Source of the DNA: Kiritimatiellia bacterium
GTDB lineage: Bacteria > Verrucomicrobiota > Kiritimatiellia > RFP12 > UBA1067
Length of the DNA stretch: 64,000 nucleotides
NCBI GenBank assembly: GCA_017450695.1
Contig: JAFSTA010000264.1
Span: 1 to 64,000, forward strand
Direction: 5' to 3'
The notes below the pieces were generated by a model. It did no database searches. It had not been told where the DNA came from and was given only the letters and a program-made list of their open reading frames with translations. A program made the position numbers and the translations under genes. Position 1 is the stretch's first letter, and each line of letters opens with the position of its first letter. Of the stretch, positions 6,479 to 49,374 are shown in pieces.

Positions 6479-6816
6479 GGGTTGGCTTGCCTAAGGCAAG
6501 GTTAGGTGGTTAGGTAGTTAGGTGGTTGGGTGGTGGCGCGTAGCGCCAGCTGAGAAGAGGGGAAGCTGAGAGGCTGAGAAGCCGGTGGGTATAAGTGGTT
6601 AGGTGGTTAAGTGGTTCATAGAGGCGCTGCGCGCCAGCGTGTTAAGTCGGTAAAGCTGGGCAAGCGAGTTAAGCCTGGGAGGCGTCGCGTCCGCTGCGTA
6701 GCGACGGCGCCCTCGCCGTCGGCTTTCGGGGAAGCGGCCGCTTTGGGAGGGTCGCGCCCCGTCGCGACCGCAATGCTGAACCGGCTAACTCATAGGCAAG
6801 GCAAGAAAGGTTTGAG
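6479..6816. repeat. intergenic repeat mosaic (GGTTAGGTG minisatellite, R1 double hairpin, GTCGCG hairpin)
   Basis: No gene. From about 6500 to 6620 there are clusters of GGTTAGGTG-type nonamers interspersed with GCTGAGAAGC units. R1 occupies about 6683-6750: GACGGC...GCCGTC hairpin, then TTTCGGGGAAGCGG and a second stem. A GGTCGCG/CGCGACC hairpin follows (about 6750-6772). The mosaic ends in ATAGGCAAGGCAAG just before the next gene. Confidence 0.75.
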
Positions 6817-27155: not shown

Positions 27156-27470
27156 TTCGCCCCCGCCCACGCTTGCAAGGGAATAGGAAACTAGGATGAT
27201 ACAGCCGATGCCATTGGTAGTGTTAAATACCTGAAGCGACTACAACCGCCTGAACCCCGAATTCTTCTCCCTTGCCTAGAGGTTCAAGGTTGGGTGGTTA
27301 GGTGGTTGGTTTGGTGGTGAAGGATAGGAACTTATCCTCATTTCCATTCCCGTGCGCGCGCTTAACATTTGGAACTGGCGCGTAACGTCTGAGATTTTTT
27401 CGAAATTTGGCGAGTGAAAGATGGTTGGAATTATGGTACACTGGCGTCAATCTTAACGGAGGATGTACGG
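27156..27470. other. intergenic, weak repeats and leader of the mannosidase gene
   Basis: GGTTGGGTGGTTAGGTGG nonamers near 27290-27318 and a TTGCCTAGAGGTTCAAGG element related to the outer arm of the 21083 inverted repeat. No gene. GGAGG at about 27459 is the Shine-Dalgarno of the next gene; I could not place a convincing promoter. Confidence 0.5.
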
Positions 27471-36674: not shown

Positions 36675-36981
36675 GAAGCGGGGAGACTGAGAAGCAGATA
36701 GGTGGCGGCTGCGCCGCCTAAGTGGCCTTGTGGGCCTACATGGGGCTACGCCCCTAAGTTGCCGGGGGCAAGGAATGGGACGTGCGACAAGCGACGCACG
36801 ACACGCATGTCGGAAAGTCGGGGTGTTGTCGCGGATGTCGCGTGTAGATCGGGAGGGTCGCGCCCCGTCGCGACCGTAACGCCTACCCGGAATATCCGGA
36901 ATGTCCGGATTGTCCGGAAAATCTGGCATACCCAGACACCTACCCAACCACCGAACCACCTAACCTCCCAACTAAAAGGCA
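36639..36981. repeat. intergenic repeat mosaic (tandem GCTGAGAAGC, R2, R3, nonamers)
   Basis: Three near-perfect tandem units of GCTGAGAAGCGGGGAG (36639-36695) run from inside the Sel1 gene. Then R2 (36697-36761), R3 (about 36777-36850), GGTCGCG hairpin, CCGGAATAT nonamers (about 36890-36930) and CACCGAACC-type nonamers, ending in AAGGCAAGG where element R4 begins. Confidence 0.8.
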
Positions 36982-37113
36982 AGGAAACAACGGGGACAAC
37001 ATCGAGAACAACTTGAATCGGGGCGGCTCGCAACCGCGAGCCGGATGGGCACCGTCGTGCGGTTGCGCGACGACCGCCTGTGTGTTGTTTATCAGTTGTT
37101 CGAATGGTTTCCT
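36982..37113. repeat. R4 element, copy 1
   Basis: Begins GGAAACAACGGGGACAA and ends TTGTTCGAATGGTTTCC (partly complementary arms). Inside are CGGCTCGC-AACC-GCGAGCCG (37024-37043) and CGTCGTGC-GGTT-GCGCGACG (37053-37072). In the second hairpin one pair is T opposite G, which stays paired as wobble in RNA. Confidence 0.8.
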
Positions 37114-43010: not shown

Positions 43011-43334
43011 TTCCACTGCGCGGTACATTCAGGGGCTGAGAAGCTGAGAGGCTGAGAAGCGAGTGTCGCGTCCGCTGCGTAGCGACGGCGCCAACGCCGT
43101 CGGCTTTCGGGGAAGGAGATAAGTGGCGCTGCGCCGCCTAAGTGGCCCTGCGGGCCTAAATGGGGCTACGCCCCTAAGTTGACTTGGCGGGGAAGAAGGG
43201 ACTTGCGACGCGCATGTCGCACGTCGCGTGTAGATCGGGAGGGTCGCGCCCCGTCGCGACCGCAACGCCTATCCGGAATATCCGGAATATCCGGCTCAAC
43301 CACCTAGCTATCCAACCTGCCAACTTTTCGGCAA
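43011..43334. repeat. intergenic repeat mosaic (R1, R2, R3, nonamers)
   Basis: GCTGAGAAGC units, R1 (about 43066-43116, loop CCAA instead of CCCT), R2 (43118-43187), a short R3, GGTCGCG hairpin, CCGGAATAT nonamers (about 43272-43293), then CGGCAAGG where R4 begins. No gene. Confidence 0.8.
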
Positions 43335-43463
43335 GGAAACAACAGGGACAATTTAGAACACAACTGAAAATGGACGGCTCGCAACCGCGAGCCGGAAACG
43401 AACCGTCGCGCGGTTGCGCGACGACCGCCAGTGTGTTGTTGATCCGTTGTCCAAGTTGTTTCC
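43335..43463. repeat. R4 element, copy 2 (best preserved)
   Basis: Outer arms GGAAACAACAGGGACAA (43335-43351) and TTGTCCAAGTTGTTTCC (43447-43463) pair except at two positions. Inside: CGGCTCGC-AACC-GCGAGCCG (43375-43394) and CGTCGCGC-GGTT-GCGCGACG (43404-43423). The two loops are reverse complements. Confidence 0.85.
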
Positions 43464-49261: not shown

Positions 49262-49374
49262 TAATGGACGGGGCGCAACCGCGAGCCGGATGAGAACCGT
49301 CGCGCGGTTGCGCGACGACCGCCGGTGTGTTGTTGATCCGTTGTACAAGTTGTTTCCGTTTCAGCGACAAAAAA
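49262..49374. repeat. R4 element, copy 3 (left arm missing or displaced)
   Basis: CGGGGCGC-AACC-GCGAGCCG (49268-49287, two mismatches in the stem) and a perfect CGTCGCGC-GGTT-GCGCGACG (49297-49316), then TTGTACAAGTTGTTTCCG as the right arm. A left-arm-like GGCAAGGGGACAA occurs ~250 bp earlier (about 49006-49018), as if R2/R3 had inserted into R4. Confidence 0.7.

Follow-up and report, generated by a model that had tools for sequence, protein, structure and literature searches.

REPINs are doublets of REP sequences that form hairpins (PMC3116915), CGTC-tagged palindromic repeats carry CGTC at one end and A-T as their first stem pairs (PMC3733652), and the bacterial MITEs ERIC, Correia/NEMIS and RUP have been reviewed together (PMC2229807). 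The GxxExxY protein family is known through curated sequence models and is scarcely mentioned in the literature searched; no description of hairpin elements bearing a GxxExxY gene was found there, an absence that is not proof of novelty.

The element considered here, R4, was found in a window of 64,000 nucleotides (the whole stretch of DNA that was analysed) within contig C177 of the 5.0-Mb draft genome of a rumen Kiritimatiellia bacterium. R4 is best explained, with a probability of roughly three in four, as a gene-less miniature (MITE- or REPIN-like) derivative of a small mobile DNA element that bears a GxxExxY gene. This reading is supported by the common anatomy of the two kinds of element, covariation of the hairpin stems, the linkage of the hairpins to a single clade of GxxExxY genes and target duplications in relatives.

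R4 in the window and in its genome

R4 had been recognised in an earlier note as two hairpins enclosed by arms in three places of the window (36982, 43335 and 49262). All three are present: the window contains the core pattern CGCAACCGCGAGCCGGA-N(3-12)-CCGTCG three times, whereas none of 100 shuffles of it does. The copies and the parts of copy 2 are as follows.

36983-37112, + strand: R4 copy 1, full; hairpin 1 at 37024-37043, hairpin 2 at 37053-37072, T-G pair at 37058
43335-43463, + strand: R4 copy 2, a full, near-palindromic miniature element and the best template for the family
43335-43364, + strand: left arm of copy 2; ACAAC at 43339-43343 and 43360-43364, mutated ACAAT at 43348-43352
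43375-43394, + strand: hairpin 1 of copy 2; loop AACC at 43383-43386
43404-43423, + strand: hairpin 2 of copy 2; loop GGTT at 43412-43415
43435-43463, + strand: right arm of copy 2; three GTTGT motifs, final GTTGTTTCC at 43455-43463
43435-43459 of C177, - strand: right arm of copy 2 as an ACAAC arm, from the arm-pattern search
49263-49357, + strand: R4 copy 3, left arm missing; hairpin 1 at 49269-49288, hairpin 2 at 49298-49317, right-arm end at 49357

Enclosing arms had been ascribed to all three copies, but the left one is absent from copy 3, and copy 1 has an imperfect outer arm (GGTTTCC); two pairs are also broken in hairpin 1 of copy 3, CGGGGCGC-AACC-GCGAGCCG. As in MITEs, the ends of R4 are terminal inverted repeats, GGAAACAAC...GTTGTTTCC, here together with the ACAAC arrays. 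Part of the left arm resembles a protein-coding stretch, but coding potential was set aside because, by inspection, the frame is broken by one-base insertions among the copies.

Two further repeats of the window lie close to R4 or to its relatives. A 15-mer like AACTTATAGGCAAGG occurs seven times in the window (0.04 expected), at 36970-36984, at 43322-43336 and in five other places; it abuts R4 copies 1 and 2, and the same word also adjoins R4-like elements in related genomes. The sequence CGGGAATGGAAATGAGGATAAG, at 27331-27352 on the - strand, is a window copy of a module that is located directly to the left of R4-like elements in three other genomes (G001, G002 and G015).

In the whole genome R4 forms a large family. 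A BLAST search with the element returned 44 matches in the window's genome, and a covariance model built from 28 R4 copies returned 132 matches with both strands counted, which correspond to 98 distinct places, or 82 under stricter filters. All 98 places are between predicted genes and none is inside one, so that R4, 130 bp long and non-coding, has the size and copy number of a MITE. This dispersal over many intergenic places, with bias neither in strand nor in orientation, speaks for the preferred reading. Each arm carries three ACAAC motifs, with the two arms as inverted repeats of each other, and this pattern is family-wide, being found 146 times in the window's genome compared to a single occurrence of the reversed control. 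Four intermediate forms of 157-185 bp in the same genome (L076, L078, L079 and L147) combine the same arms with other stems, namely GCGGGC, and with AAC and GTT loops in the form TAACYC and AGGTTG, and shorter forms with R4 arms have one hairpin or none. The GH123-family protein of the window is 88% identical to one encoded in a sheep-rumen Kiritimatiellae MAG; an empty-site comparison with RGIG6996, an 88%-identical relative, gave no alignment, the intergenic sequence being too diverged.

Gene-bearing relatives and outer inverted repeats

Among the 41 genomes compared, all draft MAGs, matches to the covariance model are present in nine, which represent six genera of one family. The elements of these relatives share the plan of R4, with three ACAAC motifs per arm and two hairpins with the loops AAC and GTT, and in one genome (G004) some of them continue into an open reading frame at contig ends. 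Gene-bearing loci were located through a search for the PF13366 family and a subsequent search with one member protein. In these relatives the open reading frame sits inside the arms, between hairpin 1 and hairpin 2, and the resulting element of about 570-620 bp, with GxxExxY as its single gene, consists of inward-facing ACAAC arms, the AAC-loop hairpin, the gene, the GTT-loop hairpin and the GTTGT arms. Both hairpins were recognised in most of these loci, and some of the members are fragments or contain a stop codon. In one case (L269, genome G143), a GxxExxY element has the right half of an R4-like element nested within its 3′ end.

The association with the gene is restricted to one lineage of the family: arms flank GxxExxY in 9 of the 9 members of a single clade and in none of the 10 next-closest genes tested, and the six full-length arm-flanked proteins form one clade in the maximum-likelihood tree (100/99 support). 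The proteins of this clade match the TIGR04256 GxxExxY model with 110.9-124 bits, far above the curated cut-off of 35, and retain the invariant residues D71, E81 and K83, that is, the D..ExK signature of PD-(D/E)XK enzymes. The predicted structure is confident (pLDDT 92), and its best fold matches in the PDB are PD-(D/E)XK nucleases of the Cas4-like and lambda-exonuclease-like kinds; a sequence search of solved structures with GxxExxY gave no match. The clade members are 82-85% identical across genera, with one copy per genome, which fits horizontal movement. In the window's genome no intact arm-flanked GxxExxY gene was found, and the two GxxExxY genes present there fall on other branches and lack the arms.

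In G057, G004, G068 and other genomes, arm-bearing units lie inside inverted repeats of the form GGGCGCATCT..GT..TTCACC. Target duplications, counted as direct repeats of 9 bases of which 8 or 9 agree, accompany 14 of the 29 complete elements with these terminal inverted repeats (TIRs), against 1 of 812 mismatched pairings, and 7 of the 14 TIR elements with R4-type arms on both sides; the arm-bearing TIR units of the relatives are thus genuine insertions. The window's genome contains 65 outer TIR ends. One of them (L338) runs into GGGATTTGGAAACAAC together with arms, in agreement with the left edge that is conserved in R4. R4 itself keeps only the inner GGGATTKG edge. In the window's genome the R4 copies lack the outer inverted repeat, their flanks scoring as shuffled flanks do, and among 89 copies no target duplication was detected at a consistent offset for lengths of 5-10 bp; both observations count against the preferred reading. 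Outside the window, the same genome harbours a second miniature family (L330, L333, L335, L113 and L086), often located at contig ends. Its members measure about 207-226 bp and have inverted repeats GGGCGCATCTGCGTTTTTCACC as well as 9-bp target duplications in which 8-9 of the 9 positions agree.

Which enzyme would act on these elements can be considered in two ways within the preferred reading. In one variant, tentative but worth serious consideration, a conventional DDE transposase moves R4 in trans via inverted repeats and GxxExxY is a passenger or an accessory. Duplications of 9 bp are typical of several families of DDE transposases, and elements with the same outer TIR and 9-bp duplications but without arms or gene are known, among them four members of the second miniature family in the window's genome (L330, L333, L335 and L113), which are about 207 bp long and have perfect duplications. 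However, no transposase with these outer ends was found; the flanks of the candidate owner, the one intact ISAs1-type transposase (PF13808) of G057, contain no GGGCGCATCT ends, the outer TIR is missing from R4 in the window's genome, and the confinement of the gene-hairpin linkage to one clade exceeds what would be expected of a random passenger. The gene of this intact ISAs1-type transposase (L298) has GC-rich hairpins around the word GGCATCGAGCC on its flanks, a further example of a mobile gene with hairpins next to it.

The second variant, which appears rather unlikely as it stands, is that GxxExxY itself is the mobilising enzyme, a PD-(D/E)XK protein that would recognise the ACAAC arms and the AAC/GTT tips on folded DNA. 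The larger element carries no other gene, and the fold of GxxExxY is that of a nuclease, but it is no less likely that a transposase acts in trans on the outer repeats, and the GxxExxY gene could be a passenger. If GxxExxY is the mobiliser, the larger element would be a single-gene transposition system of a kind not described before, and R4 would be the non-autonomous miniature of it.

R4 could also be regarded as a site of chromosomal architecture or protein binding that is kept for the benefit of the host and is spread by conversion rather than by transposition. The conserved ACAAC arrays and loops and the intergenic placement are in line with such a role, which is nonetheless improbable given that the number of R4 copies varies widely among close species, some of which have none, that the copies freely decay, truncate and lose arms or hairpins, and that related elements, complete with target duplications, are common to several genera.

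Hairpin stems, loop tips and the RNA alternative

As a single strand, R4 is predicted to fold strongly: for the + strand of copy 2, z = -7.3 as RNA and -6.9 as DNA relative to shuffled sequence, and the - strand folds nearly as well. Covariation was assessed in 11 core types from eight genomes (that of the window and seven relatives). In this set 96% of the stem cells are paired, and changes on both sides occur at 13 of the 16 stem pairs, a value reached by none of 500 shuffles; the signal is lost when the pairing partners are slid. The compensatory changes anticipated for functional stems are therefore present, and such strong covariation indicates that the hairpin folds are under selection. 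The stems of the relatives are unrelated in sequence, and nearly all of them combine a first loop AACN with a second loop NGTT; among elements chosen by their arms alone, without the model, 30 of the 34 core readings (a total that includes both strands) still showed AAC and GTT loops. Selection thus acts on the hairpins as shapes whose tip is constant.

The loops, described at the outset as invariant in every copy, are nearly but not strictly so, with 93-99% conservation per base in the 73 full copies of the window's genome. Their complementarity had suggested a kissing-loop RNA or an element with two alternative folds, and neither proposal is supported by the comparison. The fourth loop base is non-complementary in 4 of the 11 core types, and the match between AAC and GTT follows automatically from the layout of the whole element as an inverted repeat; AAC and GTT are nearly invariant, and their complementarity is thus not kept by covariation, as it would be in a kissing loop. 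The CAAC word of the loop also recurs in the arms. The long pairing between hairpins 1 and 2, on which the second fold would depend, is 74.5% paired, compared to 72.4% after shuffling. Identity with integron attC sites was likewise set aside, the AAC and GTT ends of attC being in the opposite order to those of R4.

More generally, R4 might act as an RNA, be it a kissing-loop or two-state element, a 3′-end stabiliser or a terminator, transcribed from both strands of intergenic regions. The strong predicted RNA folds speak for this possibility, as does the genuine stem covariation, although the latter does not on its own separate RNA from single-stranded DNA. RNA as the working form is nevertheless quite improbable. 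No bias in orientation relative to genes was detected: in tandem gene contexts R4 runs in the same direction as the genes in 17 cases and in the opposite direction in 22, and the other gaps that contain it are convergent in 19 cases and divergent in 18. Copy 1 does have a T opposite G, previously taken as a sign of RNA pairing, but selection on a one-strand RNA should favour G-T over A-C mismatches, and the stems of the 73 full copies include 45 of the former and 35 of the latter; the lack of a clear excess argues against an RNA form. A scan of the window against Rfam yielded no match above the gathering threshold. Since the fuller relatives in neighbouring rumen bacteria have a nuclease-like gene between the same two hairpins, the hairpins of R4 probably serve the movement of DNA rather than a kissing RNA.

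Under the preferred reading of R4 as a miniature of the GxxExxY-bearing element, R4 would have arisen by loss of the gene, and not the larger form by its acquisition; the loss would leave no more than about 10 bp between the two hairpins. A protein supplied in trans, putatively the GxxExxY nuclease or a transposase, may recognise the arms and the hairpin tips on folded or cruciform DNA, and the R4 copies would have spread through the genome by past transposition of this kind.

Comparison with known systems

The weakest alternative, that R4 is a REP/BIME/REPIN element mobilised by a RAYT (Y1 transposase), has in its favour an inverted pair of short hairpins in about 100 intergenic copies, together with the presence of a RAYT-like gene (L046, the one such gene of the genome), but is very improbable because neither a GTAG nor a CGTC tag is conserved, the stems of related species starting with CGCC, CCGG or other sequences, and because L046 (PF01797), tried as the owner of R4, carries a different, GTAG-tagged repeat and no R4. 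A GTAG-tagged REP (GTAGCGACGGCG..CGCCGTCG) is present in the window at 6698-6721 and 43079-43102, and the same repeat lies inside or beside the RAYT-like Y1 transposase gene, elsewhere in the genome; it appears to represent the RAYT-type REP family of this genome.

R4 resembles REPINs and BIMEs in being a short, non-coding, intergenic doublet of inverted hairpins present in tens to hundreds of copies; it folds as such a doublet, and REPINs have been proposed to move in trans, as is suggested for R4. It differs from them in that neither R4 nor its relatives have a GTAG tag at the hairpin foot, no RAYT gene flanked by R4 is found, and long ACAAC arms are present; the gene of its larger relatives is PD-(D/E)XK-like, whereas the REPIN system relies on a Y1 transposase. 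The 8-bp stems, 4-base loops, inverted dimers and lack of a known dedicated transposase are shared with the CGTC-tagged repeats. In R4, however, the CGTC start is seen only in some copies of hairpin 2 and is not conserved across species, the species-level cores starting with CGCC, CCGG, CGGC and so on; the first stem pairs are not A-T, and ACAAC arms enclose the element.

With ERIC, Correia/NEMIS and RUP, R4 has in common a length of 100-200 bp, the absence of coding capacity, inverted-repeat ends, strong predicted folds and intergenic location, and it is distinguished from them by a GC-rich core, the lack of TA termini and of a target duplication detected for R4 itself. R4 shares arms and hairpins with the GxxExxY elements; unlike in MITE systems, the larger relatives encode GxxExxY, the role of which as a transposase is putative, and not an identified transposase. 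The gene between their hairpins is a full member of the GxxExxY family (TIGR04256, PF13366), in which only one clade is flanked by arms. This hairpin-boxed clade, together with the abundant gene-less miniatures, offers a concrete and testable role in DNA mobility for the family, and suggests a second possible route, besides that of RAYTs and REPINs, by which hairpin doublets may spread in bacterial genomes.
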